In this document: positions 23,754 to 44,100 of the stretch, one piece after another | How positions within the stretch are numbered: position 1 is the first letter of the stretch | Layout of the letters: each line of letters starts with the position of its first letter | From: a bacterium | Lineage (GTDB): Bacteria; CAIWAD01 | NCBI GenBank assembly: GCA_030429345.1 | Contig: JAUIFJ010000010.1 | Span: 1-64,000, forward strand | DNA length: 64,000 bases | Reading direction: 5' to 3' | Position numbers and translations under genes: made by a program | The notes under the pieces: model-generated | Told to the model about the DNA's origin: nothing | Seen by the model: only the letters and a program-made list of their open reading frames with translations | Databases searched by the model: none

Positions 23754-24267
23754 TCCGCGCTTCCCTCCAGATCCCGCCATAAAGCGACGCGGCGTATACA
23801 GCGTAGAATCCATCCAGCGCCATTCCGGATGCTCATCCGGATTTCATCACTTTACAATTGAACCTTGCCTTTTACACACGATAAAGTTATTCATGCTTCA
23901 ATTGCTCAATGTTCCAATAAAATCAAGCTCTTAGCCTTTTGGCCCGGACTCTGCTACTGGAAGTTGATGCGGAAGCCCCGGGAAAACCCGTCCGTTTCGG
24001 GGCGATAACCCGGCCGATCGGCACCGAAGTGCCTTTCTTGACTGTGCTTGGGCAAATCCCTAGGTTGTGCCGGTTGCTAGGAACCTGTTCGATCTGCTTG
24101 TCAAGGCCGTCGGCAGAGCCATTTCCAGTACCCTGACTTCTGTTCCAGTTGGAGAGCGTCTTCCGCGGCCGCATGGCGGCATGCGGTTGCCTTTCCATAC
24201 CCTGGTCTTTACTCGCCGGTCACCAGGTTCCGAACCGGTATTCACTTCCTGTACTACGGAGGGTCAC
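23754..24267 (+). promoter_or_regulatory. A+T-rich regulatory gap with promoter before the surface operon
   Basis: This 514-base gap has no gene. 23841-23940 is strikingly A+T-rich and contains an inverted pair CAATTGAA (23855-23862) / TTCAATTG (23897-23904), an operator-like layout, next to a perfect CCGGATG-CT-CATCCGG hairpin (23825-23840). A promoter candidate lies at 24038-24068: TTGACT, 17 bases, then TAGGTTGT, fitting the FCB TTG/TANNTTTG pattern with 20 bases between TTG and TA. This leaves a leader of about 190 bases before the TonB receptor gene. Confidence 0.45.
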
Positions 24268-27200
24268 ATGAGAAACGCCACGCGTCCCCGTGGGTTCTCG
24301 TTCCCCGTCTTGCCCCTGCTCCTGGCCATCCTCATGGCCACTCCCGCCGCCTGGGCCCAGCGCGGCAAGATCAAGGGCAAAATCGTCGACAAAGAAAGCC
24401 GCGAGGCTGTGGTCAGTGCCCCCGTGACGGTCGAGGGCACCACCTATGGCGCCTACACGGACTTCGATGGCGAGTTTCTCATCGCCCAGGTGCCGCAGGG
24501 TCTGGTGACCATCAAAATCAGCGCCCTGAACTACCATGAGATCACGGTCCAGGAAATTCCGGTCGTGGCGGATGGTACCTACGACGTGGGCACGATCGAG
24601 ATGACCTCCTCTGCTGTCGAGCTGGAAACCCTGACCATCGTTGCCGACCGCAAAAAGGTCGACCTGACGGTTTCCAATCAAAAGACGACCGTGACGGAAG
24701 AAGACATCAGCCGCCAGGCCGTCGGTTCGGGCACGGAGCTGGTCTCCAACATTCCGGGCTTCAAGCTGAATGACGAGGGGCAGCTCACCGCTCGTGGCAG
24801 CCGTCCGGAAGAGATCAAGTTCGTCATCAACGGCATCGACGCCCGCGACCCGCTGGTCGGCGGCCAGAACTTCGTCAACCTGGACGTGGCCAACATCGAG
24901 CAGTTGGATGTGCTCTCCGGCGGCTTCGGTCCGGAATACGGCCAGGCCCAGGCCGCGATCATCCAGGTCAGCACCAAGGAGGGCGACCAGAGCGAGTACA
25001 ACGGCCGCTTCGAGTGGTCGACGGATCGCCTCTTCGACGACTACAGCTTCAATACGGACGGCTACAACCTGAGCATCGGCGGCCCGCTGCCCTTCCAGAC
25101 CAACCGTCCCGAGAGCCGGCGCGCCACCTTCTTCTTCACCGGCCGCGCCTATCTGACCGACACCTACCTGCCCTTCGACTTCGACCGCGGCAGCAGCGAC
25201 TATGTGGGCCTGGGCTTCGACCTGCCCGAGCGCCAGCGCAACGAGTACAGCGCCGCGCTGAACCTGGCGGTTCCCCTGTCCGACACACAGAAGCTGAAAC
25301 TCTACGGCGAGCACCACTTCCGCCGCTGGGACCTCTACCCGGATGGCGAGGGCCCGGTGAGCGGCAATTACGGCTACGCCTACCTCTTCAATCCCCGCAA
25401 CCGCCCGCGCGCCGAGAACGTGAGCACCAATTTCAGCCTGACCTATTCCAAGGTCTTTCCCGAGCTGGAATCGACCCTGGAAGTCCGCCTCTATCGCAGC
25501 CAGACGGACACGGAGATCCTGCCCGGCGGCCGCGCGCCGGACGAATTCGTGCTCGAGCTGCCGGCCCAGGAGCAGGCAAACGAGGACGACAAGGGCGCTT
25601 TCCTGGGCAACGGCTACCAGGACAACGACGGCAACGGCTACTACGACGGCTATGTGGACGCCAACAACAACGGCCAGTATGACGGCTACGTCTACGACAG
25701 CTACGGCAATCCGATCTACAGCGAGGGCTACGAGGACCTGAACCGCAACGGCCGCTATGACGCGGGCGAGGACTGGATCGACCTCAACGGCAACGGCATC
25801 TACGACACCGCCGAGCCCTGGACCAATGTGCCCAACCCGGTCAACGGCCTGGACAACCCCTGGTACGATCCCTGGGATCCCTACGAGGACCTGAACAACA
25901 ACGGCCGCTGGGACGACGCCGAGCCGCAGACGCCCGAGCAGGACATCAACCACAATGGCCGCTGGGACGGCGAGCGCTTCCAGGACGTCAATGGCGACGG
26001 CATCTGGAACGGCTGGAGCGAGGCCTTCACCGACGACAACGGCAACGGCGTCTGGGACGAGGGCGAGGATTACACCGACGAGAACGGCAACGGCCGCTGG
26101 GACATGGCGGAAGGCTACGACGACATCAACCTCGACGGCCGCATCAACTTCCGCGATGTGCGCGACACCAACGAGGACCTGGGCGAGCCCTACCTGGACG
26201 GCGACCTCTATTTCGACACCGGCGAGCCCTTCATCGACGAGCCCGATCCGGTGACCGGCGTCTACAACGGTATCTGGGACCAGGGCGAGATCTGGTTCGA
26301 CCTGCCCAGCACCTATGGCGGCTACCAGACCTGGATCCAGAACGGCGGCCTGCAGACTCCGGGGGCGACCCCGCCGCAGGCGACGCTCAACGGCCAGTAC
26401 GACGGCCCCAACAATATTTTCGACGAGTTCGAGCTCTTCACCTACTACGCCGATTTCGTCGAAGACCCCTTCCTGCAATTCCACTCAGGCAACAATACGC
26501 GCAGCGTGGGGCAGACCCCGGCCGAGCTGGTCTTCAACGAGCATTACCGCAGCTCGGTGATCGATGTCAGCCGTCCCGTGCTCTACACCTACAATCCGGA
26601 AGACAACGGCTCGGACTGGCCGGCCCAGATCTACCTGGCCAGCACTCCCGGCCGCACCTGGGAAGACCGCAGCAACGACCCGGACTACGAGGCCCGCTTC
26701 GATCCCCAGAACTACACCTGGGACGAGTGGGAGCCCTTCGTCGACTACAACTCCAACGGCCGCCAGGACGGCAACAACTGGGGCGGCAGCCTGACTTCGC
26801 CCTGGGGCCTGCAGTACAATTTCGAGGCCTACTACGACTTCTTCCTCAACCCGAACAACTTCGACGGCGACGCCATCTGGCAGGAGCGCCGTTCGGTGAG
26901 CTATTCCATGGAAACCGAGTACCAGTGGCAGGTCAACAAGCACCACGACGTGCTCACCGGCTTCCAGATCCTGGCCCGCGACCTGACGATGAACTCGATC
27001 CAGGGTCCGAACAAGTTGTATGACGGATCGGCTCCCCTGCCTCTCGGCAGCCCCTATCCGGATCGCGGCGACTACCGCGACTTCTACGACCGCCAGCCGG
27101 TCGAGGGCGCGGTCTTCTTCCGCGACCAGATGGAATTCGAGGGCATGAACGTGCTGATCGGCATGCGCTACGACTTCCTGCTGCACGAGGAGAGCCTGGT

Positions 27201-28242
27201 CAGCGAAACGGAAGAAGCGGCCAACGCCGGCGATCCCGCCGCCGTCGAAGCCAACCGCGGCACGGGACGCCTGAGCCCGCGCCTCGGCATCAGCCATCCG
27301 ATCACCGAATCGGCCAAGCTGTACTTCAACTACGGCCACTTCTACCAGGCCCCGCAGTACAGCTACTATTACCAGTCCGCCACGGGTAGCGCTGCCAACA
27401 ACACCCTGGTCGGCAATCCCAATCTGAAGTACGAGAAGACGGTCGAGTACCAGTTCGGCGTCGAGGCCCGCTGGCCGGAAATCGGCACGACGATCAACAT
27501 GCAGGGCTACTACCGCGACATTTTCGACCAGATCACCTCGACGGTCGTCCAGCTGGCTCCTGGCTACACGGTGGACCAGTACACCAACGGCGACTACGGC
27601 CGCGTCCGCGGAGTCAACCTGACCGTCGAGAAGGCGGCCAACAACATGAGCTTCCAGTTCAACTACGAGTTGAGCTTCGCCTACGGCAAGGCCAGCTCGG
27701 CCCGCGCCGCCGCCGAGGACCGCATCAACAACCAGCCGGTCAACCGCGACGAGCGGCCCCTGGACTGGGACCAGACCCACAACCTGAACGCCTACTGGTC
27801 GCTGTATTACGGCCCCGGCGAGAAGCCGCAGCTCTTCGGCATGCGCCTGCCCACGGACTGGCTCTTCACGGTGAGCAGCTCCTTCGCCACCGGTCGCCCG
27901 TATACGCCGTCGATCTACGACAAGGAGGTCGAGCATTCGGCGCTGATCGCCCGCAACTCCGAGCGCATGCCCTGGACGGAGAACACCAAGGTCAAGGTCG
28001 AGAAGTACTGGCGCTTCAAGTCCAGCCGCCACCACCTGGTGACCGGCCTGGAAGTCAGCAACCTCTTCAACCATCGCAATGTGCGCACCTACTACGGCGC
28101 GACGGGCACGACCTATCAGGCCATGCACGCGGAGAATCCGGATTATGTCCTGTACTACCCGGGCAAGAACGGCTATGACGCCAACCCGCGCAACATCGGA
28201 CCGGGACGCCAGGTGACCCTGCGGTTCGGGTACAAATTCTAG
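24268..28242 (+). CDS. TonB-dependent receptor with inserted calcium-loop repeats
   Basis: 1324 residues from ATG 24268 (ribosome-binding site GGAGGG). Signal peptide cleavage falls after Ala30. A carboxypeptidase-regulatory-like beta-sandwich (33-115) and a plug domain (about 140-250, with NIPGFKLNDEGQLTARGSR) precede a beta-barrel ending RQVTLRFGYKF. Within the barrel, residues about 450-640 carry ten short repeats of EF-hand/dockerin type (DNDGNGYYD, DLNRNGRYDAGED, DLNGNGIYD, DLNNNGRWDD, DVNGDGIWN, DENGNGRWD and similar). An eleventh (DYNSNGRQD) lies near 830. They would form an extracellular, calcium-binding loop. As first gene of a five-gene operon it probably takes up or exports a ligand with the partner lipoproteins. 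Substrate unknown. Confidence 0.85.
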   Translation: MRNATRPRGFSFPVLPLLLAILMATPAAWAQRGKIKGKIVDKESREAVVSAPVTVEGTTYGAYTDFDGEFLIAQVPQGLVTIKISALNYHEITVQEIPVVADGTYDVGTIEMTSSAVELETLTIVADRKKVDLTVSNQKTTVTEEDISRQAVGSGTELVSNIPGFKLNDEGQLTARGSRPEEIKFVINGIDARDPLVGGQNFVNLDVANIEQLDVLSGGFGPEYGQAQAAIIQVSTKEGDQSEYNGRFEWSTDRLFDDYSFNTDGYNLSIGGPLPFQTNRPESRRATFFFTGRAYLTDTYLPFDFDRGSSDYVGLGFDLPERQRNEYSAALNLAVPLSDTQKLKLYGEHHFRRWDLYPDGEGPVSGNYGYAYLFNPRNRPRAENVSTNFSLTYSKVFPELESTLEVRLYRSQTDTEILPGGRAPDEFVLELPAQEQANEDDKGAFLGNGYQDNDGNGYYDGYVDANNNGQYDGYVYDSYGNPIYSEGYEDLNRNGRYDAGEDWIDLNGNGIYDTAEPWTNVPNPVNGLDNPWYDPWDPYEDLNNNGRWDDAEPQTPEQDINHNGRWDGERFQDVNGDGIWNGWSEAFTDDNGNGVWDEGEDYTDENGNGRWDMAEGYDDINLDGRINFRDVRDTNEDLGEPYLDGDLYFDTGEPFIDEPDPVTGVYNGIWDQGEIWFDLPSTYGGYQTWIQNGGLQTPGATPPQATLNGQYDGPNNIFDEFELFTYYADFVEDPFLQFHSGNNTRSVGQTPAELVFNEHYRSSVIDVSRPVLYTYNPEDNGSDWPAQIYLASTPGRTWEDRSNDPDYEARFDPQNYTWDEWEPFVDYNSNGRQDGNNWGGSLTSPWGLQYNFEAYYDFFLNPNNFDGDAIWQERRSVSYSMETEYQWQVNKHHDVLTGFQILARDLTMNSIQGPNKLYDGSAPLPLGSPYPDRGDYRDFYDRQPVEGAVFFRDQMEFEGMNVLIGMRYDFLLHEESLVSETEEAANAGDPAAVEANRGTGRLSPRLGISHPITESAKLYFNYGHFYQAPQYSYYYQSATGSAANNTLVGNPNLKYEKTVEYQFGVEARWPEIGTTINMQGYYRDIFDQITSTVVQLAPGYTVDQYTNGDYGRVRGVNLTVEKAANNMSFQFNYELSFAYGKASSARAAAEDRINNQPVNRDERPLDWDQTHNLNAYWSLYYGPGEKPQLFGMRLPTDWLFTVSSSFATGRPYTPSIYDKEVEHSALIARNSERMPWTENTKVKVEKYWRFKSSRHHLVTGLEVSNLFNHRNVRTYYGATGTTYQAMHAENPDYVLYYPGKNGYDANPRNIGPGRQVTLRFGYKF

Positions 28243-28253
28243 CTGGAGCCCTC

Positions 28254-30362
28254 ATGAAGCGAAGCATTTACGGACTGTTCGCGCTGCTGCTGGTGGCGCT
28301 GGTCGCCTGCGAGGACGACCCGGTCGAGTACGATCGCTCGACGGTCGAGACAGTCCGCCCCTATACGACCCAGATCAGCGACAGCCTGGTCTCGGGCACC
28401 TGGGACCTGGCGGGATCGCCGTACTACGTCTCCACCTCCGTGGCCGTCGCCGCGGGGCAGACGCTGACGATCCAGCCCGGCGTCGAGGTCCACATGGACC
28501 GCAACACCTCCTTTTTCGTCGAGGGCACGCTGAACGCCGTCGGCGAGGCCGGCAACAACATCCGCTTCATCGGCCATATCTATGAAGAGGACTACGGCCT
28601 GTGGAACAGCATCGTCTTCCTGCCGGGAAGCGACGCCAGCCGGCTGGAATACTGCATGGTGGCCTACGGCGCGAAGTTCGACAACAGCGATCCCTACCGC
28701 AACGCGGCGATCGTGATCGATGACTGCAATCCGACCATCGCCCACAACCTGATCTACCTCAACCAGTACAACGGCATCACGATGATGCACGGCGCCATGC
28801 CCCGCGTCCATTCCAACATCGTCTACGAGAACGACGGTTCGGGCATCGTCTATGACACGACCCACGTGGGCACCACGAACATGCTGGACTGGACGGACAG
28901 TCTGGTGGTGCACAACAACGTGTCGCTCAACAGCTCGCTGGCCTTCCGCTACCCGGTCGAGTTCGGGCAGCTCCAGTGGGGCCTGACGGTGTACGACAGC
29001 GTCTTCGCAGGGGACACGCTCAACACCATCGACACTCTGGTCGTCGTCGATTCGCGTTTCGCCATTGGCGAGAACATCTACCAGAACGAGAACCGCGACC
29101 AGGTCGACCTCTTCGGCAACTGCCTCGACGACGCCAATTTCGACCAGATCAACGCCGACATCCAGGAATTCAATTCCTGCAGTCCCTGCATCGAGGCGGG
29201 CTACAATTATGCGGGAGGCAACCGCAGCGACGTGGGTCCCGTGCTCTACCAGGCCGATGCCCAGGAGCTGCGCAAGGCCTTCAAGGAGCACACGCTGAGC
29301 GGTACCTGGAAGGTCACCTGCGACGCCTTCAGCGACGAGCCGGTCGTGATCCAGCCGGGGACGCACATCGAGTTCTCCGGCTTCTACGGGCTGGAATTCA
29401 ATTCGGACCTGGAGATGGAAGGGGTCACCATGTCCCTGGGGCCGGAAGCCGAGTGGACGGTCCCGGAAGGCACCGCGCTGAGCAACTGGCGCAGCGTTCT
29501 CATCAAGCCCAAGACGGATGACCTGGCCCTGGATGCCGTGTTGCAGCAGATCGATGTCTCGATCAGCGACTGCCAGTTCTCGGAGGGCTCGGAATCCGGC
29601 TTCTTCGGCCAGGACTGGATCAACAACGGCGGTATCGTCGAATTGAGGGATCGTGACGCCTATTTCATCGAGGGCGACTCGCATCTCTACACCTTCTGGG
29701 CCGCCATCAACGCCACGGTGGAGAACTGCCAGTTCGACAACAGCATCTACTACGCGGTCGCGGCCCATGGTGATTTTGCCCACGTGGACGTGGACAACTG
29801 CACCTTCAACAACACGGGTCTCAGTGCCTTCTACCTGCACAACAACGCCGGCGGCTCGATCATCAACAGCCGTATCTCGGGCAGCCGCGCCAACGGCGTC
29901 TTCGTCTACAACACGAACCGGCCGGTGACGGTCTCCAACAACCTGGTGATGAGCGCCGATGTCTACGGCGTCAAGGTCCAGGCGGCGGGGGATGTCGCGG
30001 TGACACAGAACACGATCATCAACAACGGCTACGGCGGCATCAAGATCGAGAGCCAGTCCACCCCGGTGATCATGAACAACATTATCTCCGGAAATGACTT
30101 CAGCGGACACGAACTGGCCACCGGCATCGTCGGCAACCAGATCGGGGCCGTCAACGACACCAACAACCCGATGATCGACGAGAACTGGTTCTACGACAAT
30201 GGCGGCTCCGAAGAGAGCTTCCCGCAGAACTGGCAGGTGGGCGGTTGCAACCAGCAGGGTTCCGACCCGCAGCTGTCCGGGGACAACTACATGCCGGCCA
30301 CCGGAAGCTTCGACTGCGGCGGTCAGTCGATCTCGGTCGGCTGGAATCCCGGGGGGAACTAG
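28254..30362 (+). CDS. Surface/periplasmic beta-helix lipoprotein
   Basis: 702 residues starting 12 bases after the receptor. A lipobox LVALVAC places the lipidated Cys at residue 19. Much of the protein is repeats of beta-helix turns rich in N and I/V (PRVHSNIVYEND, VTVSNNLVMSADVYG, VAVTQNTIINNGYGG, PVIMNNIISGND), the NosD/pectate-lyase-like right-handed fold, in an N-terminal (50-240) and a C-terminal (about 500-640) block. No catalytic aspartates or lysine/arginine signature of lyases was recognised. As partner of the TonB receptor it may bind a polymer at the cell surface. Confidence 0.7.
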   Translation: MKRSIYGLFALLLVALVACEDDPVEYDRSTVETVRPYTTQISDSLVSGTWDLAGSPYYVSTSVAVAAGQTLTIQPGVEVHMDRNTSFFVEGTLNAVGEAGNNIRFIGHIYEEDYGLWNSIVFLPGSDASRLEYCMVAYGAKFDNSDPYRNAAIVIDDCNPTIAHNLIYLNQYNGITMMHGAMPRVHSNIVYENDGSGIVYDTTHVGTTNMLDWTDSLVVHNNVSLNSSLAFRYPVEFGQLQWGLTVYDSVFAGDTLNTIDTLVVVDSRFAIGENIYQNENRDQVDLFGNCLDDANFDQINADIQEFNSCSPCIEAGYNYAGGNRSDVGPVLYQADAQELRKAFKEHTLSGTWKVTCDAFSDEPVVIQPGTHIEFSGFYGLEFNSDLEMEGVTMSLGPEAEWTVPEGTALSNWRSVLIKPKTDDLALDAVLQQIDVSISDCQFSEGSESGFFGQDWINNGGIVELRDRDAYFIEGDSHLYTFWAAINATVENCQFDNSIYYAVAAHGDFAHVDVDNCTFNNTGLSAFYLHNNAGGSIINSRISGSRANGVFVYNTNRPVTVSNNLVMSADVYGVKVQAAGDVAVTQNTIINNGYGGIKIESQSTPVIMNNIISGNDFSGHELATGIVGNQIGAVNDTNNPMIDENWFYDNGGSEESFPQNWQVGGCNQQGSDPQLSGDNYMPATGSFDCGGQSISVGWNPGGN

Positions 30363-30367
30363 GAACA

Positions 30368-33300
30368 ATGATGAGCAAGGCACTCAAGAGCATTCCGGTC
30401 CTGCTGGGCTTCAGCCTGCTGGCCGGCAGCGTCCTCGCCAAGCACTCGGACGAATACTACGAACCCGTCGTGCGCAAGGACGTCAACGAGAATCTGATCG
30501 ACGCCGACTGCGAGAGGCCGACTCTTGACCTGCGCGTGCACCGCGTGGGCAAGATGTGGCTCACCTTCCGCAATGGTGGCACCTTCGGTCACGGCGACGA
30601 GGCGGGGGACACGGACCCCTGCACGGGAGAACGCGCGCCCCAGTGCGAGTACCCCGGCGGCAGCGGAGTGGAATACCTCTACCAGGGCAGCCTCTGGATC
30701 GGCGCGCTGATCGTCGACGACAGCGGCATCGAGACCCCGCGCGTCTCCTTCGGTTCCGAAGGCTGGGACCGCGACGTGCAGGAGCTCTGGCCCGGCTGCG
30801 GGGAGGAATTCGAGATCCAGGAAACGACCCTGCGTCCCAATGCCCTCGACTGCTTCGGCATGCAGATCTTCGACTCGCTGAGCGTTTCCGAGCAGGATTA
30901 CCACAGCACCTTCACGGACACGATCACCGACCTGTCGCTGCTGCCCACCGGTTCGCGCTGGGATCCCCAGGACAACAACCACATCCCGCTGGGCATCGAG
31001 GTGACGCAGGAAAGCCATTCCTGGTCCTACAGCTACGCCCAGGACTTCATCATCGTCGACTACAAGATCACCAACATCGGCAGCAAGTTCCTGAAGAACC
31101 TGTACGTCGGCCTCTACGTGGACGCCGACGTGGGGCACAGCCAGGAAGCCGGCCAGGGCCGCTCCTCGGACGACTTCACGGCCTTCCGCCGCGTGGCCAT
31201 CGACACGGTGAGCAACCAGGCGATCCAGATCAATTCGGCGATCATCGCCGACAACGACGCGCGTCCCGCCGACGAGCAGACAGGCACCAACTTCACCTGC
31301 CCCGACGTCACCGGCACCCGCATTCTGCGCGCCCCCAATCCTCAGCTGTCCACCACCTTCAACTGGTGGAACTCCAACCAGAGTTCCGACCGTGACTACG
31401 GTCCTGCCCTTGAAAAATGGCTGACGGAAACGGACGCCCGCGGGGACGACATGACCTGGACGCACATTCTTGGCACGCCGGAAACGGACCAGCGCAAGTA
31501 CCAGGTCATGTCCAACGGCGAGTTCGATCCCAACATGTACGACTGCGTCGTCGGCGACAACCCGCCCTGCATGCCGATCATCGATCCCGCTACGGGTGAC
31601 ACAACGGACTGTCTTGAGTGGGGCATTGTAGAAGACGCCGTGCAGCCCAACGGCGACGACACGCGCTACCTGATTTCCTGGGGCCCGATGGGCGTCTTCG
31701 ACTACACCGACGCCAACGGCCAGAACATCTTCCGCCTGAATCCGGGCGAAAGCTTCATCATGACCATCGCCTACGTGGCCGGGCAGAACCTGCACGACCG
31801 CTCGAATCCCCAGCCCAACGTGGCTACGGTCATCGACCCCGAGAAGTTCGACTGGACCGATTTCGACTTCAATGCCATCTGGTCGCAGCGCGTCTACGAC
31901 AACGAGATGTATGACACGCCGCTCTACGACACCGACGGCGACGGCTTCTACGACCTGGGCGACGGCTGGCCCGGCGAGGACGTCGGCCTGGACGGCCTCT
32001 GGGCCCCGGCCATCGGCGACACGGTCAAGTACTGGGGCCGTGTGATGACCGGACCCGACGGGCTGCCCGCCATCTACCAGGGACCGGACGAGGACGGCAC
32101 GGAGGCCAACGGCCTGCTGGACAGCGGTCCTTCCGCCTACTGGGGCGGCGCGAACGTCAACGAGGACGACTTCCTCTGGACCTTCCTGCGCGACCGCGGC
32201 AACCAGGAAATGGTGGAAGACAGCTTCCTGATCTACGCCGGTCCCAAGTTCTCCGACGGGGCGCGCGAAGACTGGTACATCGGCCACTTCAACAACAATG
32301 GCTTCCTCGACGCCGGCGACGGCATTCCCGATTTCCAGGGTCCGCCGCCCCCGCCCTGCCCGGACCTGGAAGTGGTCACGGGAGAAGGCTGGCTGGAACT
32401 GCGCTGGCAGCGCAACTCGATGACCGACGCCTACGTGGACCCCTTCAGCCGCGTGCAGGATTTCGAAGGCTACCGCATCTATTCGGCCAACGCCAATTTC
32501 GAAGGCGACTACGAGCTGATGGCCACCTTCGACAACATCAACTTCGCCTACTTCGACGAAGCGGACGGCGCCCTGCGCACCCTGCCCGATCCCGGGCCTT
32601 TCAACGCCCAGCCCCCGTCGGACCAGGTCCGCGGCTGGGAGCGCGCGCTGGTCGGCAACAACTCCGGCTTCCATGACATTGTCCACGTGGAAGGTGAACC
32701 CGAAGAGGAGCTGCTGAGCGACATCAACGGCAATGCCTGGGCCGACTGGGGAATCGCCGTCTGGGTCAATGCCCCCGGGGACACCACCTTCTGGGTCGAG
32801 GGGCGCGATGTGGAGCTGACCCGCGGCGGCAACGGCTACCTGACCTACACCAACGACGAGAACGAGCAGGTCGTCTACAACGGCGACTTCTTCCTGGACA
32901 CGAACGGCGACAAGCTGTGGACCCCCGGCGACTCGTATCACGTGGAGTTCCGCTATCGCATCGAGGGACTGGCCAGCCTCTACCCGCGCTACTATTCGGT
33001 GGCCGCCTATGACTTCGGCGACTACCAGACCGGCACCGAGCCCCTGGAGACGGCGCGCAGCTGCAACGCCATCCGCCAGGCGCCCAGCGGTTCGCCGCGC
33101 AACGAGGTGCGCGTGGTGCCCAACCCCTACCGCTTCGACCAGGACTACACGACGAGTTTCCGCCCCGGCAACAGCAACACGGGCCTGTCCTGGGAAAACC
33201 AGGACGACGGCTCGGTGGAGTTCCTGCCCAGCGAGGACCGCCGCATCGAGTTCATGAACCTGCCCCAGCAGTGCCTGATCCGCATCTACACCATCTCCGG

Positions 33301-33493
33301 GGACCTGGTGCAGATCGTGCCGCACAACGTGGAGGGGGATAATTCTCGCTGGAACTCGGACTTCTCCGAATCCTGGGACCTGAACAACCGCAACTTCCAG
33401 CAGGTCGCGAGTGGCCTGTATTACTTCAGCGTCGAAGACATGAGCCCCGGCGGCGGAGACATCGCCACCGGCAAGTTCGTGATCATGAAATAG
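30368..33493 (+). CDS. Large secreted protein with type IX-like C-terminal domain
   Basis: 1041 residues from ATG 30368 (AGGAAC upstream; a second ATG follows immediately). The signal peptide ends SVLAK. Calcium-loop motifs occur in the middle (DTDGDGFYDLGD, NNNGFLDAGDGIPD, DTNGDKLWTPGD). A fibronectin-III-like segment is at about 690-760 (PPPPCPDLEVV..GWLELRWQ). The C-terminal sorting domain runs from VVPNPYRFD to GKFVIMK. The remainder is an unrecognised beta-rich region with cysteine pairs. Its sorting domain makes it a likely type IX cargo, matching the PorV-like gene 21 bases downstream. Confidence 0.7.
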   Translation: MMSKALKSIPVLLGFSLLAGSVLAKHSDEYYEPVVRKDVNENLIDADCERPTLDLRVHRVGKMWLTFRNGGTFGHGDEAGDTDPCTGERAPQCEYPGGSGVEYLYQGSLWIGALIVDDSGIETPRVSFGSEGWDRDVQELWPGCGEEFEIQETTLRPNALDCFGMQIFDSLSVSEQDYHSTFTDTITDLSLLPTGSRWDPQDNNHIPLGIEVTQESHSWSYSYAQDFIIVDYKITNIGSKFLKNLYVGLYVDADVGHSQEAGQGRSSDDFTAFRRVAIDTVSNQAIQINSAIIADNDARPADEQTGTNFTCPDVTGTRILRAPNPQLSTTFNWWNSNQSSDRDYGPALEKWLTETDARGDDMTWTHILGTPETDQRKYQVMSNGEFDPNMYDCVVGDNPPCMPIIDPATGDTTDCLEWGIVEDAVQPNGDDTRYLISWGPMGVFDYTDANGQNIFRLNPGESFIMTIAYVAGQNLHDRSNPQPNVATVIDPEKFDWTDFDFNAIWSQRVYDNEMYDTPLYDTDGDGFYDLGDGWPGEDVGLDGLWAPAIGDTVKYWGRVMTGPDGLPAIYQGPDEDGTEANGLLDSGPSAYWGGANVNEDDFLWTFLRDRGNQEMVEDSFLIYAGPKFSDGAREDWYIGHFNNNGFLDAGDGIPDFQGPPPPPCPDLEVVTGEGWLELRWQRNSMTDAYVDPFSRVQDFEGYRIYSANANFEGDYELMATFDNINFAYFDEADGALRTLPDPGPFNAQPPSDQVRGWERALVGNNSGFHDIVHVEGEPEEELLSDINGNAWADWGIAVWVNAPGDTTFWVEGRDVELTRGGNGYLTYTNDENEQVVYNGDFFLDTNGDKLWTPGDSYHVEFRYRIEGLASLYPRYYSVAAYDFGDYQTGTEPLETARSCNAIRQAPSGSPRNEVRVVPNPYRFDQDYTTSFRPGNSNTGLSWENQDDGSVEFLPSEDRRIEFMNLPQQCLIRIYTISGDLVQIVPHNVEGDNSRWNSDFSESWDLNNRNFQQVASGLYYFSVEDMSPGGGDIATGKFVIMK

Positions 33494-33514
33494 CGTAGGA
33501 AGCGGAGCACAAAC

Positions 33515-34519
33515 ATGAGAACGATCCAGACCCTTAGCCTGTGCCTGCTGCTGTCCCTCGCGGGGACGGTCCTGGCGCAGAACAAGGCGGGCACGACGAC
33601 CGCTTCCTTCCTGGAGCTTTCGGCCAGCGCCCGCGGCATGGCCATGGCCGATGCCCTGCTGCCGATCGCCGACGACGTCTCGGCGCTGTACTACAACCCG
33701 GCCGGCCTGACCCTCTGCGAGAGCAGCCAGTACGGCTTTACGCACATGGAGCTACCGGTGGATGTGCGCCAGGAATGGTTCGGCTACGTGCGCTACCTGG
33801 AAGGCGTGAACGCCACCATCGGCTTCTCGGCCACGCACCTGCATACGGACCAGATGGACGAGACCACGCCCTGGGCCGTCAACGGCACGGGGAGAACCTT
33901 CGGTTGGACCTCGACCGCCGTCGGCCTCTCGGCCGCCAAGCGCCTGACCAACAAGTTCTCGACGGGACTGACTGTCAAATGGCTTCGCCAGTCCGCCATG
34001 GAAGAGAACTCTGACGGCTGGGCCGCGGACGTGGGCACGTATTACGACACCGGCTGGCGCAACCTGAAGGTGGCGATGATCATCAGCAACTTCGGCCCGG
34101 ACATGAAGTTCTTCGAGGAGGAGGATCCTCTTCCGATCCTCTTCAAGTTCGGCGTCTCGATGTACGTGATGAACACGCCGGAAGACGACCACTTCGTGCT
34201 CGGATCCTTCGAGTTCGGGCACCCTTCCGACAACATCGAGCAGATCAACCTGGGCTTCGAGTACGTCTACAACCAGGATTTCGCCTTCCGCCTGGGCAAG
34301 AAGATCAACGGAATCCAGCGTGACACATGGGACGAGTACCAGGAGGATTCCGGCAAGGATCCCTTCCTCGAGTATCCGCTCCTGTCCATGGACGGCTTCG
34401 CGGCCGGTTTCGGCTATACCTTCCACTCGAGCCTGGGCGCCAGCAGCATCGACGTTGCCTGGACGCCCAACGAGTTCCTGGAAGACTACTTCATGGTTAC
34501 CCTGTCCCTGAACCGCTAA
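33515..34519 (+). CDS. PorV/PorQ-family outer-membrane beta-barrel protein
   Basis: 334 residues. The signal peptide ends VLAQ. The N-terminal block SASARGMAMADALLPIADD followed by VSALYYNPAGL is the hallmark of the PorV/PorQ (UPF0164) family, related to FadL barrels. The rest shows alternating aromatic strands of a 14-stranded-type barrel, ending MVTLSLNR. PorV proteins shuttle type IX cargo from the translocon to the attachment machinery. Here the gene sits directly after a cargo-like protein, so a dedicated shuttle is plausible. It could also be a simple porin for a hydrophobic substrate. Confidence 0.78.
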   Translation: MRTIQTLSLCLLLSLAGTVLAQNKAGTTTASFLELSASARGMAMADALLPIADDVSALYYNPAGLTLCESSQYGFTHMELPVDVRQEWFGYVRYLEGVNATIGFSATHLHTDQMDETTPWAVNGTGRTFGWTSTAVGLSAAKRLTNKFSTGLTVKWLRQSAMEENSDGWAADVGTYYDTGWRNLKVAMIISNFGPDMKFFEEEDPLPILFKFGVSMYVMNTPEDDHFVLGSFEFGHPSDNIEQINLGFEYVYNQDFAFRLGKKINGIQRDTWDEYQEDSGKDPFLEYPLLSMDGFAAGFGYTFHSSLGASSIDVAWTPNEFLEDYFMVTLSLNR

Positions 34520-34529
34520 GAGGAAACGC

Positions 34530-37391
34530 ATGCGAGCAACCAAAAACCTCATCCGGCTCTTCCTTCTGGGCCTGACGGCGGCCTTCCTGCTGCAAGCCTG
34601 CAGCTCGATCGACGGGGACTTCGCGGAGAATGCCATTCCGCGGGTCAACTTCGTCAACAATGAGCCCGACGCGGACGAGAGCGAATTCCAGTTCCACATC
34701 GAACAGTACAATTTCGCCTTCCTCGACAGCCTGAGCGGCTTCAGCGAGGCCTCGCCGGCCCGCTTTCCGGCGCCCGGCGCCACGGCGACGGAGAACGTCC
34801 GTTTCCAGCTGATCAACTACCAGTACTTCCAGGTCGTGTCCATCGACTCGATCTACGTGCGCGACGAGAACGGCGACTACGCCATGACCGTCGACCCCTC
34901 GCTCTACCAGCTGGACCCGAACATCGGGCGCTACCTGTGGATCACGCAGCCCGCCGCCGCGGACCCCTTCCACTGGGCGCTGAACACGCACTACGTGATC
35001 GCCGGCGAGTTCAAGTACCAGCCGGTCTACTCCTTTTCGCCGATGATCTTCTGGGTCGGCAGCGATCCGGACGGTTTCGTCGAGCAGTACCGCTACATGA
35101 ATGTGGAGTACACGACGGATGCCGCCCTGCAGTCCCTGCTGAGCAGCCTGGCCGCGGACCCGGACATGGACCTGGAATGGTCGTATACGCAGAACACCCA
35201 GGCCGTCATCAACCTGGACACCTCGCTGGGCCAGATCCGCAAGCACGTGATGCTGGTGCAGGCCATCGACAACCTGGGCGCCGTCTCCGAACCGGACACG
35301 CGCATCTTCAACCGCTCCAACCGCGCTCCCAACACGCCGCGGCTGACCTACCAGAAGGACGGCTTCAGCTCCCTGGGCCAGCCCTCCGAGTATACGCGCC
35401 GCGTGATCAACTGGGATGACTTCATCGGCGACGCCTCGATTGCCAACAACCTGGCGAGCCAGACGCCCTACGCGACGCTGCCCAGCTTCTACCGTCCGGT
35501 CGATGCCTGGAACGGCATTCGCTTCCTGGTGGCCGGCGACGACCCCGACGACCAGGCCTTCGTCACGATTCCCCTGCAGTTCCGCTACCGGCTGGTCAAG
35601 TTCGACGAGAACAGCGACAGCCTGGACTACTTCCGCAGCTATGACGGCACCTGGGAGGACGACGGCCACTGGGTCGGCACCTATACGGACTCCACCGGCT
35701 GGGTCAGCGATCACGCGGAATGGATCACGCTCAGCGAATCCAACGTGATCGACTACGAGGACGCCTACGGCTTCGACGCGGACGGCTGGAGCGACAATTC
35801 GATCCTCGAGCTCTACAACCTGGACAGCGGCTGGTACCAACTGATGGTCTGGACCCGCGACGACGGCCTGGAAGCCTGCGCCACGCCGGCCTGGATGCGA
35901 TTCAAGGTCCAGCGCATGGAGCGCACGCCGGAAAAAGGCGTCCTGCTGATGAACTGGACGCCGACCAGCCTGCCGCCCGCCACGGCCTGGAATGTCTTCG
36001 GCGGTCGCAGCCATGGCGAACTGGGCGAGTGGTACCGCGACCTGATCGACGAATCCTATGTCAGCCTGGGAGCCAATCCGGCGGATCTGCGCTGGAACAC
36101 GGAGTTCCCCGACGATTTCACCCTGCGCTACTGGCAGCCCGGCGAGACTGCGGACAGCCTGGGGCACGAGGCCTTCCCGAGCTACATGCCCTTCGAGGAG
36201 ATGTGCCAGTACAAGGTGGTCATCTGCGTGGACGACGGCTACAAGGGCAACAGCAGCCGTATCACGGCGATCAACGACTACTTCCGCGTGATCGCCATGG
36301 ACTACCTGGACCTGGGCGGCAACCTCTTCTGGACCGGACACAGCAGCCTGGCCAAGTCCTTCGGCTACAATCCCACGGACATCAACAATACCCAGCAGTT
36401 CCTGACCACCAATTCCGGTGACTTCCTGGGCAACTACATGGGCATCCAGGATGTCTACATCGACCAGTTCCTGACCTTCCAGAACAGCATCGGCGACGGC
36501 ATGACCGCCGCGATTCCGGAATTCGACTTCCTGGACACGCTGCGGCTGAACCAGGCCGTGATCGACACCATGCGCGGCGACGGAAACACCTTTTTCGACG
36601 GTCGCTTCGATGACGGCGACGAGCAGACGCCCTTCGACTGGCGAAGCCCGCTGCCCGGCGACTGCGTGCCCTATATCGAGTCCTTCTCCGTGGACGACGA
36701 GTCGGGCACGGAATCGATGTATACCTACAACAGCTACTCGGCGAACGTGGAGCGGCGGCAGGTCTTCGACTTCTTCGAGGTCATCGACGCCAGCGATCCC
36801 AGCCGCGACTTCCTCTTCGCGCCCGTGTCCCAGGGAGGACTGGGGCTGAATTTCCCGCGCGAACCTGGACCGAACGGCTGCTGGATCTGGATCCCGAACA
36901 CCGAGCGCAACCTGCAGGACATGACGATCTTCAGCACCTTCGAGGCGCACAACATCAGTCGGCCGGACAACATGTGGGCCCAGGTGATCCAGGATGTGCA
37001 GGTACTGGATACCGACAACCGCTGGAAGGTGCACATGTACCTGCAGCACCAGACCATTTCGGATACGACGGACTACTGGGCCGTGGGCGACACGGTGAGC
37101 GTCGACCTGGAATGGGACCCCGTCCTGGACAAGCACCGCAAGGTGACCATGTGCTTCACGGAAAACACCAATTCCAGCGGCGGTTTCGGGCCCTTCGGCG
37201 GTTTCGCCACCTACACCAACTTCCGCACGGCCTTCAACACCGTGCCGCTCTATCTGATGGAAGAGGGCGGATTCGGCACTGTTGATCCCAGTTTCGGACT
37301 TCTGCCGGGCTCGGGCTACAAAGGCCTCATGGAAGCGGTGATCGCCTCCTTCTACGAGCCGAAGATCCAGGACCTGCTTGAAGGCAACTAG
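34530..37391 (+). CDS. Very large lipoprotein of unknown function
   Basis: 953 residues, 10 bases after the PorV-like gene. Lipobox LLQAC, with the lipidated Cys at 24. Segments resemble Ig/cadherin-like beta sandwiches (SFSPMIFWVGSDPDGFVEQYRY). The central part (about 565-610) has a run KVVICVDDGYKGN ... DYLDLGGNLFWTGHS that looks like an alpha/beta glutamine-amidotransferase-like or flavodoxin-like fold; that is a pattern impression only. It is last in the operon and followed by a terminator. Its constant company with the TonB receptor and PorV-like protein points to a surface complex. Confidence 0.6.
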   Translation: MRATKNLIRLFLLGLTAAFLLQACSSIDGDFAENAIPRVNFVNNEPDADESEFQFHIEQYNFAFLDSLSGFSEASPARFPAPGATATENVRFQLINYQYFQVVSIDSIYVRDENGDYAMTVDPSLYQLDPNIGRYLWITQPAAADPFHWALNTHYVIAGEFKYQPVYSFSPMIFWVGSDPDGFVEQYRYMNVEYTTDAALQSLLSSLAADPDMDLEWSYTQNTQAVINLDTSLGQIRKHVMLVQAIDNLGAVSEPDTRIFNRSNRAPNTPRLTYQKDGFSSLGQPSEYTRRVINWDDFIGDASIANNLASQTPYATLPSFYRPVDAWNGIRFLVAGDDPDDQAFVTIPLQFRYRLVKFDENSDSLDYFRSYDGTWEDDGHWVGTYTDSTGWVSDHAEWITLSESNVIDYEDAYGFDADGWSDNSILELYNLDSGWYQLMVWTRDDGLEACATPAWMRFKVQRMERTPEKGVLLMNWTPTSLPPATAWNVFGGRSHGELGEWYRDLIDESYVSLGANPADLRWNTEFPDDFTLRYWQPGETADSLGHEAFPSYMPFEEMCQYKVVICVDDGYKGNSSRITAINDYFRVIAMDYLDLGGNLFWTGHSSLAKSFGYNPTDINNTQQFLTTNSGDFLGNYMGIQDVYIDQFLTFQNSIGDGMTAAIPEFDFLDTLRLNQAVIDTMRGDGNTFFDGRFDDGDEQTPFDWRSPLPGDCVPYIESFSVDDESGTESMYTYNSYSANVERRQVFDFFEVIDASDPSRDFLFAPVSQGGLGLNFPREPGPNGCWIWIPNTERNLQDMTIFSTFEAHNISRPDNMWAQVIQDVQVLDTDNRWKVHMYLQHQTISDTTDYWAVGDTVSVDLEWDPVLDKHRKVTMCFTENTNSSGGFGPFGGFATYTNFRTAFNTVPLYLMEEGGFGTVDPSFGLLPGSGYKGLMEAVIASFYEPKIQDLLEGN

Positions 37392-38758: not shown

Positions 38759-41104
38759 ATGAAAGTGAGTGGAATGAATCTGGACGGCCTGAATACCGAG
38801 CAGCAGAATGCCGTGACACGGACCGAAGGGCCGGTGCTGATCCTGGCCGGAGCGGGCAGCGGCAAGACGCGCGTGTTGACTCACCGCATCGCCTGGATGC
38901 TCGAGCAGCGCGTCTGTCGGCCCTGGCAGATCCTGGCCCTGACCTTCACCAACAAGGCCGCCCGCGAGATGAAGGATCGCATTGCCCAGCTGGTCGGCGA
39001 GCGAGTCGACGAGATGTGGGTCGGGACCTTCCACTCCATCTTCGCCCGCATCCTGCGCCGGGAGGCCGAGCTGCTGGGCTACGACCGCAACTACAGCATC
39101 TACGACAGCGACGACCAGCTGCGTCTGCTCAAGGACATCATGAAGCGGCGCGAGATCAGCACCAACCAGCTGAATCCCAAGCGCGTGCGCTCCGTGATCA
39201 GTTCGGCGAAGAACGCCATGCTGGACCCGGAAAGCTTCGCCAACAGCGACAGCGGCTACCTGCATGAGCTGTATACGGACATCTTCCGCGACTACAGCGC
39301 CGGCCTGAAGAAGGCCAACGCCATGGACTTCGACGACCTGCTGCTCCTGCCGATCGAGCTCTTCCGCAAATTCCCGGAACGGCTCCACTATTGGCGGGAC
39401 CGCTTCCGCCACGTGATGATCGACGAGTACCAGGACACCAACCGCGCCCAGTTCACCGTGACACAGATGCTGGCCGAGGAGCACAACAACATCTGCGTCG
39501 TCGGCGACGACGACCAGAGCATCTACGGCTGGCGCGGGGCGGACATCTCCAACATTCTCGACTTCGAGGACCACTGGCCGCAGACGGCGGTCTTCAAGCT
39601 CGAGCAGAACTACCGCTCCAGCGAAACGATCCTCGAGACCGCGCATTCCATCGTGTCGCACAACGCCGGCCGCAAGCCCAAGAAGCTGTGGACCGACAAG
39701 GGCAAGGGCGAACTTGTGACCCTGCTCGCCGGCGAGGACGAGGCCATGGAGGCGGCGCTGATCTGCGACCGCATACAACAGGCCAACCGGGCCGGGCAGG
39801 GCTACGGCGATTTCGCCGTGCTCTACCGCACCAATGCCCAGTCCCGCGCCCTGGAAGAAGCGCTGATCCGCAATGGTGTACGCTATCAGATCATCGGTGG
39901 CCTGCGCTTCTACGAGCGGCGGGAGGTCAAGGACCTTTTGGCCTACCTGCGGCTGCTGGTCAATCCGCGGGATACGATCAGCCTGCTGCGCGTGATCAAC
40001 TACCCGAAGCGCGGCCTGGGAGACGTGGCCGTCGGCCGCATCCGCCAGCTGGCGGTCGAGGAGAACCTGGATTTCTACGATGCCCTGCCAGTGGCCGCCC
40101 AGCGCCTGTCCGGCGCCGCGGGCCAGCGCGCGGGGGAACTCCACGCCCTGCTGGAAGAGCTGCGCGGGCGCCTGCAGGAGGAAAGCGCGGACGCCGTGAT
40201 GCAGGAACTGATGGACCGCATCCGCCTGCTGGAACACCTGGAGGCCGAAGGCCCCGAAGGACAGCCGCGCATCGAGAACGTGCGCGAGCTGCAGAGCGCC
40301 CTGGCGCGCTACTCGGACAACAGCGAGCTGGGACTGGAGGGCTTCCTGCAGGAAGTGGCCCTGGTGGCGGATGTAGACGGCCTGCAGGACGCCGGCGACC
40401 AGGTCACGCTGATGACCGTGCACAGCGCCAAGGGCCTGGAATTCGACACGGTCTTCGTCAGCGGCCTGGAAGAAGGACTCTTCCCGCTGGGCAACAGCTT
40501 CGCCGACGAAGACGACCTGGAGGAGGAGCGGCGCCTGTTCTACGTTGCGGCGACCCGCGCCGAGCGCAAGCTCTACCTGAGCATGGCCCGCTATCGCCGA
40601 CGCTATGGCGGAGGCGGCGGAGGTCCGAGTCCCTTTCTCTCCCAGCTTCCGCCGGAACTGCTCGACCAGGCCGACGACTTCGGCGGAGGGCGCTTCCGCG
40701 GACGGGACGAGCGGGCCGGAGGACGGGATGGACGCTGGCAGGGCGGCGGCGAAACGCGTGAGACAATCCGCCGGCCGGGCCGTCCCGCGTCCAGGCCGAA
40801 GCGGAGCGGACGTGTTCCGTTGAGCGGCAGCGAGGCCCTGCTGAACAAGGTCAGCCCCTTCCGCGACGGCGCGCCCGCCGCCGATCCGATGCCGGACTAC
40901 GAGAACGAGAGCCAGGAGTTCGAAGGTCCCAGCGATCCGAGGGAGATCCACGTGCGGGCCGTCGTGCTGCACAGCAAGTACGGCCGCGGCATCGTGATCC
41001 ACAAGGCGGGTTTCGACGAGGACATGCGGATCACGGTCCGCTTCGACAGCGTGGGCGTCAAGAAGCTGGTGGCACGCTTCGCCAAGCTGCAGGTGGTCGG
41101 CTGA
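38759..41104 (+). CDS. uvrD: UvrD/PcrA-type superfamily 1A DNA helicase
   Basis: 781 residues. An ATP-driven 3'-5' helicase used in nucleotide-excision and mismatch repair and in clearing RNA polymerase or recombinase. Motif I is GAGSGKT (31-37), motif II DEYQDTN, motif III GDDDQSIYGWRGA, motif IV QNYRS, motif V LMTVHSAKGLEFD and motif VI VAATRA. The C-terminus (YGRGIVI..) resembles the PcrA/UvrD Tudor-like domain that binds RNA polymerase. An RG-rich linker (about 640-685) precedes it. ATG 38774 (MNLDGLNTEQQ) is an alternative start. Its stop overlaps the TPR gene by one base (TGATG). mutS lies 13 kb downstream. Confidence 0.95.
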   Translation: MKVSGMNLDGLNTEQQNAVTRTEGPVLILAGAGSGKTRVLTHRIAWMLEQRVCRPWQILALTFTNKAAREMKDRIAQLVGERVDEMWVGTFHSIFARILRREAELLGYDRNYSIYDSDDQLRLLKDIMKRREISTNQLNPKRVRSVISSAKNAMLDPESFANSDSGYLHELYTDIFRDYSAGLKKANAMDFDDLLLLPIELFRKFPERLHYWRDRFRHVMIDEYQDTNRAQFTVTQMLAEEHNNICVVGDDDQSIYGWRGADISNILDFEDHWPQTAVFKLEQNYRSSETILETAHSIVSHNAGRKPKKLWTDKGKGELVTLLAGEDEAMEAALICDRIQQANRAGQGYGDFAVLYRTNAQSRALEEALIRNGVRYQIIGGLRFYERREVKDLLAYLRLLVNPRDTISLLRVINYPKRGLGDVAVGRIRQLAVEENLDFYDALPVAAQRLSGAAGQRAGELHALLEELRGRLQEESADAVMQELMDRIRLLEHLEAEGPEGQPRIENVRELQSALARYSDNSELGLEGFLQEVALVADVDGLQDAGDQVTLMTVHSAKGLEFDTVFVSGLEEGLFPLGNSFADEDDLEEERRLFYVAATRAERKLYLSMARYRRRYGGGGGGPSPFLSQLPPELLDQADDFGGGRFRGRDERAGGRDGRWQGGGETRETIRRPGRPASRPKRSGRVPLSGSEALLNKVSPFRDGAPAADPMPDYENESQEFEGPSDPREIHVRAVVLHSKYGRGIVIHKAGFDEDMRITVRFDSVGVKKLVARFAKLQVVG

Positions 41105-44100
41105 TGCGCCGCCTGGTCGCCCTGCTCCTGCTGCTGCTCGTGGCCGGAAGCGCCTTCGCCGGCGAGCGGGAGGAGTTCGACTACGCGCTGCGCCTGCACC
41201 AGGAGGGCGTGTACGACATCGCCATCGAGCAATGCGAGGCCTTCCGCCGCGATTATCCCGACAGCTACCGCCTGGACCGCATTCTCTTCCTGCAGGGCGA
41301 ATGCGCCTGGGCACTGGGGGACTGGGAAGCGGCGCGCGCCGTCTGGCTGCGGCTGAGCCTGAACCACCCGAAGAGCGATCACGCCGCCGAGGCCCTTCTG
41401 CGCACCGCCGATTGCCTGGAGCGGCTCGAAAGGCCCCAGGACGCCCTGCGTGGCCTGCTCCGCGTATACGACTACTATCCGGAATCGCCCCTGGCCCCGC
41501 AGGCCCTCTTGAAGGCCGCGCGGCTGCAGGCCGCGAACCCCGTCGAGCAGCGTGAGACACTGCAGATCCTGCTGCGCGCCTTCCCCGCCCACCGCCTGGC
41601 CCGGGAAGCGGAGCTGGAACTGGCGCTCGGGTGGCTGCGCGCCGGTGAGTCGAGGCGGGGCATCCAGGGACTGCGGCGGCTGCTGCAGGAAGAGCTAGGG
41701 GACAGCCTGCGCCTGCGCGTGGTGCTCGACCTGGGGCAGGCTCTCGCAGGCCCCGACGGAGCGGCCGAGCTGGTGCAGCTCTTCGAAAGCGAACGCCCGC
41801 GCTTGCAGCATCTTCCCGGAGTGCTGCGCACGCACCTGCTGGAAGGCCGTTCCCGCCTGGAGGCCGCGGATCGGCAGGGCGCCATGGACTGCCTGCAGGC
41901 TGCCGTCGCATCGTCGCTGTTGCCATCCCTTGAACAGGCTCCGCGGGATTCCCTGCACTTGCTGCTGGGGGATGCCCGCTGCATGACCGGAGACTTTGCC
42001 GGGGCCGGTCAGGCCTGGAGCTCGATGGCGGCACAGGATGCAAGCGTTGTCCTGCGTCGCGCCCTGGCCGCCGAATGGGGCGGGAAGCCGGAAGACGCAT
42101 TGGACCTTCACCTTCAGGTGTTGCGGGACGAGGACGCGGATCCGGATCTGCGCCTGGAAGCGCTGGATCACGCCCTGGGCCTTGCAAGCGCCGGCTCCCT
42201 TCCCGAACTGGGCCGTGTCCTGCAGCAGCTGGACCTGGGGCGGGCGGCCCCCGAGGCCCTGCTTTCCGTGTGTGACGGCCTGCTGGCCCATGGCCGTACG
42301 GAGGCCGCGGGACGGCTGCTGGAGTCCCTTTCGTTGGAGGGCGAGGAACTTGCGGACGACCTGCTGGCCCTCGAGATCCGCCTGGCGGCGGCGCGGGAGG
42401 ATGATCGTCGCGCCAGCCGCCTGTGGAACACCTTCCTGCAGGATTACCCGCTGAGTCCCCTGCGTCCGGAACTGGAAGTGCTGTACGACAACCAGGTGCG
42501 TCCCCGAGCCGAGGCCGTCGAGATGAACCGCCGCCTGCTCGAACTGATGAGCACGCGCGGTCAACGCGACGAGGCGGAGGAAGCGCTTGCCTTCGGCCGC
42601 CTCTACCTGGAACACCTGGGCGATTCGACTGCCGCTCTTTCCCAGTTCGACCAGTCCCTTGCCGCCGGAGGCAGTCCGGCCACGAGGCTGCAGGCGGCAA
42701 TCGGCCGCATTCGCGCCGGTTGGTCCAGTCTTTCCATGGAAGAGCGTGTACGACAGAGTCGCCAGTTCCAGGCAGCTGCTTCCGCGGAAGATCCCGCCAG
42801 GGCCGGGAAGCTGCGCGACCTGGAACTGCAGGCCCTGCTGGAGGATGCGCCGGAACAGGACCTGGAGCTGCTGCAGGGACTGCGCCGCGGTGCCGAAGAG
42901 GACCCGATTCTCCTGCGGCGCCTGCTGCTGGCGGCCGTCGAAAGCCTGCCGGATCCGCCCGCCGAAGACACTCTACTGGCCCGACGGGCACTGGCCTGGG
43001 GCGACACGCTGCAGATCCTCAGCGGCCTGGATGCTCCCTGTCTGCTGGGAATGGCCCGCGCCGCGACCCTACTGCCGGACCAGGCCGCCCGCGCGGCCAT
43101 GCTGGCCCGCGAGCTGCTGCAAGGATACCCGGCGGCACCGGAGGTGGTCGAAGCGGAGATCCTGTTGTCTTCCCTGGAGAGCACCAGCGACGAGGAGCGC
43201 GTCGCCCTGCTGGAGCGTATACAGCAGGAACGGGCCTATCATCCCGTGGCGCGCGAAGCCGGTCACCTGCTGGTGGTCCTGCGGCAGCGGGAGGGACGCT
43301 GGCAGGAGGCCCTGTCCCTGTGCGACAGCCTGCTGGCGGGGTCGATGGTCCGTCCCGCGCCCCTGCCGATCCTTCCGGCCCGCGTCGATCCCCTGGTCTA
43401 CAATCGCGGGCGCAGCCTGCAGGAACTGGGCCGTGCCCGCGAGGCCGTCGAGGCCTACCGCCTGCTGCTCTCGGCCGCGCCGCAGGGCGACCGGGCGGCG
43501 GACCTGCTGCTGCGCCTGGGGCAGTGCAGCGAAGCGCTCGGCGAAAGCGAGCAGGCGCTGCTGTATTACCGCAACCTCAACGCCTTCTATCCGCGGACTC
43601 CGGCCAACGCCCGCGGCCTGGTGCGCATGGCTTCCATCTATGCGGAAAGCGGCCGTGAGACGCAGGCCCTCAAGGTGTATGACAACCTCAAGGAGGAGCG
43701 CCGCGGGGATCCGCTGGTCGGCTACGGCTGGATCCGGGCGCTCTATGCCGCCGGGCAGCTCGAGCTGGGCCGCGAGCAGATGTCGGCCTACCTGAAGCGG
43801 CACGAGGCGGTGATCGACAAGGACACGGTCAGCGCGGCCTTCAACCTGGAAAAGGGGCGCTTCCTGCTGCGCCGCGGCCGCCTGGACGACGCGCAGAAAT
43901 CGCTGAAGGTTGTGACACGCCGCTACGACGAGACGCGCTTTGCCGCCCCGGCGCGGCTGGAACTGGCACGCGTGGCCCTGCGCGCCGGCCGTGAGGACGA
44001 TGCCCTCGAACTGCTCGAGGGCCTGGAAAAGGATCCGCGCCTGGCGGCCCCTGCCAGCCTGGAGCGCGGCTGGATCTTCCAGCGCCGCGGCGAAGGCGCG

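Follow-up and report, generated by a model that had tools for sequence, protein, structure and literature searches.

Five adjacent genes on one strand of a contig from an uncultured bacterium constitute, as judged by sequence comparison, a conserved unit in which a TonB-dependent receptor is combined with a type IX surface-protein cargo, a barrel of the PorV/PorQ family and two lipoproteins. The individual parts follow known logics, and the new point is their union as a conserved operon. We lean towards the view that the five products form one surface complex, consisting of the TonB receptor, an outer part that reaches the surface by type IX export and stays on its cognate PorV-family barrel, and the two lipoproteins.

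Organization of the unit

The window, i.e., the whole stretch of 64,000 nucleotides that was analysed, was previously interpreted from its sequence alone (hereafter, the sequence-only reading). The five genes that it placed at 24268-37391 are all found there, on the same strand:

24268..28242, +, TonB-dependent receptor, 1324 aa
28254..30362, +, right-handed beta-helix lipoprotein, 702 aa
30368..33493, +, surface-protein cargo, 1041 aa
33095..33493, +, C-terminal sorting domain of the cargo (alignment A5)
33515..34519, +, PorV/PorQ-family outer membrane barrel, 334 aa
34530..37391, +, large lipoprotein, 953 aa
37416..37447, +, terminator-like hairpin with a 14-bp stem and a 4-base loop

The intergenic gaps measure 11, 5, 21 and 10 bases, in agreement with the 5-21 bases given earlier, and from this spacing the genes are probably transcribed as a single unit. 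The open frame of the receptor gene extends from a GTG at 24067, while the ATG at 24268 has the sequence GGAGGG 4 bases upstream. Downstream of the stop codon of the last gene is the strong 14-bp hairpin (MFE -26.6 for a 71-base stretch; z -1.9), which fits the terminator that had been proposed to end the operon. A simple terminator scan did not list this hairpin, its T-run being short, and found terminator-like sites to be no commoner than in shuffled sequence. The product of the last gene had been described as a giant lipoprotein; it is a lipoprotein, but "giant" is generous for 953 aa.

Within the window, the unit is flanked by a PilZ-domain gene upstream, and by a YceG-like gene and a UvrD-like helicase gene downstream. 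The end of the helicase gene overlaps by 1 base with a gene (41104-44661) for a 1185-aa protein made up mainly of TPR repeats. The products of the gene at 44744-47281 and of an ORF starting at 13860 both carry ordinary type A-like domains at their C-termini.

Conservation in relatives

A contig scan with a single PorV sequence found no relatives. With the cargo alignment as query, 141 relatives were retrieved and 80 of them kept; the record labels are Delongbacteria, LCP-89, KSB1, Calditrichota, Electryonea, Tariuqbacter, Hatepunaea and Zixibacteria. For some loci with the unit or the cargo family (L043, L045, L057, L082, L085 and L092), the record names Acetofilamentum, Puniceispirillum and Ignavibacterium appear doubtful.

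Two genomes of the same family (L021 and L023) have all five genes in the identical order, TonB receptor, beta-helix lipoprotein, cargo, PorV-family barrel and lipoprotein. The order is kept across several phylum-level groups of uncultured bacteria that are only distantly related, with insertions or with loss of the helix gene. Many versions of the Calditrichota and LCP-89 type have extra genes inside the unit, including one for a protein of 1300-1460 aa with an ordinary C-terminal domain, and the Zixibacteria versions are missing the beta-helix gene. Homologues of the last lipoprotein stand last in the unit in the relatives as well. The TonB receptor and the PorV barrel co-occur in records with Delongbacteria, LCP-89, KSB1, Calditrichota, Electryonea and Zixibacteria labels. 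The sequence-only reading had made its case depend on the gene order recurring in relatives, and the order is indeed conserved in many of them. Chance adjacency of the genes is rejected by this recurrence.

Enough flanking sequence is available on both sides of 35 cargo loci. The TonB receptor, PorV barrel and last lipoprotein accompany the cargo at 20 of these, the TonB receptor and PorV barrel at 3, and at 12 the cargo stands alone; there are no loci with only the receptor and none with only the barrel. When counted from one side, mutual presence of the TonB receptor and PorV barrel around the cargo is found in 25/25 and 26/26 cases, and in all of these counts (35; 25/25; 26/26) the loci are interrelated and hence are not independent trials.

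These counts bear on the idea that the unit is no more than an operon for TonB uptake, the cargo and barrel being distinct surface proteins whose only link is co-expression. The TonB domains of the receptor are clear, and passages of one source describe Bacteroidota TonB receptors as commonly accompanied by surface lipoproteins (PMC12578637). Nevertheless, we regard the idea as rather improbable, because, wherever both flanks of the cargo are visible, TonB and PorV are present or absent together without exception, and because divergent versions of the trio of TonB receptor, cargo and PorV barrel are found several times within a single genome.

The cognate barrel is not always nearby, since cargo-family genes are also found where PorV and TonB are missing, both at the 12/35 loci and in tandem arrays. 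The arrays consist of two to four cargo-family genes with no TonB or PorV gene near them (L085, L090, L097, L099, L113, L115-L117 and L120), and are mostly Zixibacteria-labelled. At four other loci (L053, L066, L073 and L080), an isocitrate dehydrogenase-like gene, named from its sequence, is situated just upstream of the unit, and its recurrence suggests a stable chromosomal place.

The barrel

The barrel scores 154.4 bits over positions 27-333 with the PorV/PorQ family model NF033709 (PorV_fam), whose cut-off is 90, and the barrels of 23/23 unit orthologues match this model at E <= 0.001. Scores for the two equivalog models are far lower, with 54.8 bits against a cut-off of 250 for PorV proper (NF033710) and 90.6 bits against 220 for PorQ proper (NF033711). 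Going by these models, the barrel is a member of the PorV/PorQ family that is itself neither PorV nor PorQ. A profile of its relatives matched F. johnsoniae PorV among solved structures (6h3i_F) at 1.6e-24, and the outer membrane protein 3dwo at 0.0015 over a short stretch only. A tree of 79 sequences unites the unit barrels of the different groups in one clade (support 0.95) and places F. johnsoniae PorV with barrels encoded beside PorU; its deeper branches are weakly supported.

In Pfam, FadL and PorV are both below cut-off for the barrel. The sequence-only reading had allowed that its PorV-like protein might cluster with ordinary FadL-type porins, but NF033709, the profile and the tree all place it with PorV/PorQ. 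An ordinary FadL porin is rejected, with Toluene_X under its cut-off and PorV_fam over.

The unit could alternatively be an accessory for assembly or secretion, rather than for uptake, comparable to FadL-type BamG and surface BamH on the BAM complex of Bacteroidota. According to parts of one source, the B. thetaiotaomicron BAM includes a FadL-family barrel that holds an extracellular partner at the surface (PMC12578637), and the unit adjoins a housekeeping-like gene in several relatives. We consider such a role very unlikely, because there is no BamA-related gene within the unit, the barrel is of the PorV/PorQ family and is paired with type IX C-terminal domains, and a TonB receptor would be an odd part for a BAM accessory.

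The cargo and its sorting domain

From the sequence, a 41-member alignment and a structure model (mean pLDDT 76), the cargo is built of a signal peptide, an N-terminal beta-rich domain and a C-terminal sorting domain. It belongs to no Pfam or NCBIfam family, and searches of solved structures with the cargo and lipoprotein profiles gave no match at E <= 0.1. Foldseek with the cargo model returned weak matches to GH65/GH94/GH116-type proteins and aldose epimerases, and to PorU and PorZ (query TM-scores <0.2). The GH65/GH94/GH116-type proteins and aldose epimerases have the beta-supersandwich fold in common, which is at most a hint in the model of a sugar-binding fold. None of the operon genes encodes a known ligand or enzyme pointing to a substrate.

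The sorting domain has the motif PNPY ... NLP..C.IRIYT..GDLV ... WDL.NRN.Q.V.SGLY ... GKFVI.K (alignment A5), and the signal peptide and PNP...SGxY...K architecture of type A cargo can be read from the sequence. Even so, the window's cargo domain has no match to TIGR04183, the type A model, at E <= 1. Among 20 C-terminal domains of units, NCBIfam matches were to PorZ in 17/20, PorU in 15/20 and TIGR04183 in 10/20 (best 2.4e-5). The window's own domain matches PorZ alone, at E = 0.0056, and the resemblance to PorZ and PorU therefore rests mainly on the orthologues. When an HMM of the unit domains was compared with a general HMM, it was preferred by 0/46 ordinary domains and 0/9 PorU domains, and by three C31-type partners. 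These comparisons indicate that the C-terminal domain of the cargo is a subtype apart from ordinary type A and nearer to PorZ/PorU. The type IX sorting domain of the sequence-only reading is thus present, but in the form of this distinct subtype rather than ordinary type A. A PorU subtype is rejected, since the general model outscores the unit model for 9/9 PorU domains from these phyla.

Of the proteins whose genes immediately precede a PorV-family gene, 52/56 share an ending of the form G[KR]-hydrophobic...K, as against 5/51 other C-terminal-domain proteins (Fisher 9e-20); with the unit's own family removed, the count is 15/18 (1.7e-8). These p-values overstate the case, because the motif was picked after viewing the sequences and because families were counted repeatedly.

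Passages of two sources describe the C-terminal domain of PorU as uncleavable and PorU as held on PorV, and the PorZ domain as likewise uncleaved, with PorZ held on PorQ (PMC5562754, PMC8545088). A cargo domain of a subtype nearer to PorZ/PorU would therefore favour retention on the barrel over plain secretion. The main rival explanation is that the PorV-family protein is a mere dedicated shuttle from SprA to PorU, with PorU cleaving the domain and anchoring the cargo covalently, and the barrel then being recycled. Carrying type A cargo as a shuttle is the established role of PorV in the parts of two sources that treat it (PMC5562754, PMC12618676), and PorU is present in the genome. However, F. 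johnsoniae manages with a single PorV for all of its type A cargo, and a fixed 1:1 pairing would be unneeded for shuttling; the domain subtype is unlike ordinary type A and resembles the uncleaved domains of PorZ and PorU. The 1:1 layout instead resembles type B cargo with SprF, whose barrel also anchors: in passages on F. johnsoniae SprB and SprF, a cargo gene is followed by that of its own FadL-family barrel, which acts as cognate shuttle and anchor (PMC12618676, PMC9143113). The present unit differs from the type B arrangement with its SprF/PorP-like barrel, in that the barrel belongs to the PorV/PorQ family and the C-terminal domain has its relatives in type A/PorZ rather than in type B. 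We judge the shuttle explanation to be unlikely, though worth keeping in mind, and prefer retention of the uncleaved cargo on its barrel.

The receptor and the lipoproteins

The receptor has a signal peptide and, in Pfam, a carboxypeptidase-regulatory-like domain (35-122; PF13715) and a plug (136-229), followed by the barrel, and its scores are above cut-off for both PF07715 (44.1 bits) and PF00593 (83.1 bits), which identifies it as a TonB-dependent receptor. It contains an insertion of ~375 residues with 11 calcium-type motifs, D-x-[DN]-x-[DN]-G. Such motifs are calcium binders, and calcium binding by the unit receptors is a prediction from the motif. Receptors of orthologous units have 5-14 of these motifs, mostly within the insertion at ~residues 440-800; none was found in the receptors of the genome's other TonB/PorV sets.

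The beta-helix lipoprotein (PF13229, 82.7 bits) has the lipobox ALVA|C followed by EDD. The last lipoprotein has the lipobox LLQA|C followed by SSI, and the residues after the lipobox are conserved among its relatives. It matches no Pfam or NCBIfam family; its model (pLDDT 74) is a chain of Ig/FN3-like domains, for which Foldseek gave generic Ig/FN3 matches only. An acid-rich stretch after the lipobox cysteine is a mark for surface export in Bacteroidota, a rule that may not hold in these phyla. At least two acidic residues just past the lipid-bearing cysteine are found in 17/29 relatives of the beta-helix lipoprotein, and in 2/29 of the last lipoprotein.

The sequence-only reading compared the unit with SusCD systems. 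The likeness is a loose one, of a TonB receptor with a carboxypeptidase-regulatory domain and lipoproteins after it. The differences are that a type IX cargo and a PorV barrel occupy the middle of the operon, that the receptor scores 49.6 bits with the SusC/RagA model TIGR04056 against a cut-off of 368, and that the SusD family is absent from both lipoproteins at E <= 0.1 (Pfam, NCBIfam). Classification as SusCD is rejected on these grounds.

Type IX components and related gene sets in the genome

The genome from which the window derives has the SprA translocon (SprA_N at G000:C44, E 2.4e-35) and a PorU sortase (NF033707, 561.5 bits against a cut-off of 420), and at least 150 domains of the TIGR04183 type. 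SprA and C25 peptidases were found together in 9/9 relatives with the trio (or its part on the contig), as well as in this genome. Models for the GldL/GldM motor and for PorP gave no match in the genome, and were silent in the controls too.

There are 11 places in the genome that match the barrel. Three further trios of TonB receptor, cargo and PorV barrel (C31, C65 and C11) have cargo proteins that share little outside the C-terminal domain, and C47 has the same parts in a different order. The cargo-domain subtype occurs at 7 places at E <= 1e-6; five are in TonB/PorV sets (C40, C65, C31, C11 and C47), and the remaining two (C20 and C92) are lone cargo relatives without partners.

A possible mechanism

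A dedicated TonB/type IX unit, as put forward in the sequence-only reading, is well supported because the order is conserved in many relatives and the barrel is of the PorV/PorQ family, not an ordinary FadL. Building on the observed gene set and its conserved order, the protein families, the C-terminal-domain subtype, and the SprA and PorU of the genome, we infer the following route of export, retention, complex formation and uptake. The cargo would cross the outer membrane via the SprA translocon; through its special C-terminal domain it would be captured by the PorV/PorQ-family barrel encoded by the adjacent gene and held there non-covalently and uncleaved, much as PorV retains PorU and PorQ retains PorZ. 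The held cargo and both lipoproteins might then work together with the TonB receptor, whose loop insertion is of the calcium type, as an energised uptake gate, in which the cargo would fill the role played elsewhere by SusD-type lipoproteins.

Among the closest parallels are PorU-PorV and PorZ-PorQ of the type IX attachment complex of P. gingivalis, in which a type IX C-terminal-domain protein is likewise paired with a PorV/PorQ-family barrel, and whose domains are nearest to the subtype described here; the PorU gene itself adjoins a PorV gene in relatives. The present cargo differs in having neither a C25 peptidase nor PorZ propellers; moreover, cargo and barrel are linked here to a TonB receptor and two lipoproteins, and the unit barrels make up a separate clade. 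We found no description of such a unit in the open-access literature (titles, abstracts and passages), which is not proof of absence. Type IX secretion has been studied almost exclusively in Bacteroidota, and here its barrel-plus-cargo logic appears with a TonB receptor as a conserved operon in several poorly known phyla. Two testable questions arise from this, namely whether C-terminal-domain subtypes have their cognate partners among the PorV-family paralogues, and whether a TonB uptake gate can receive its outer part through type IX export.

A more speculative scenario, to which we assign little probability, is that TonB-ExbB-ExbD energy acts directly on the type IX-delivered cargo, the receptor and barrel-held cargo being a TonB-driven surface machine that possibly replaces part of the GldL/GldM energy supply in those phyla for which the GldL/GldM models gave no match. 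At one locus (G034:C47; L158:2482-10126), the gene order is TonB receptor, ExbB, ExbD, TonB and cargo-family protein. This gene row suggests that the cargo family is coupled to TonB energy, and the order is compatible with such energy acting on a type IX-delivered protein.

A further pairing with PorV-like barrels was noted at three loci (L128:3237-6661, L147:1-6765 and L151:3597-6921), where a C-terminal-domain protein of ~500 aa ending in WGK... has two PorV-like barrels close by; a pdxJ-like gene is near in 2/3 of these loci.
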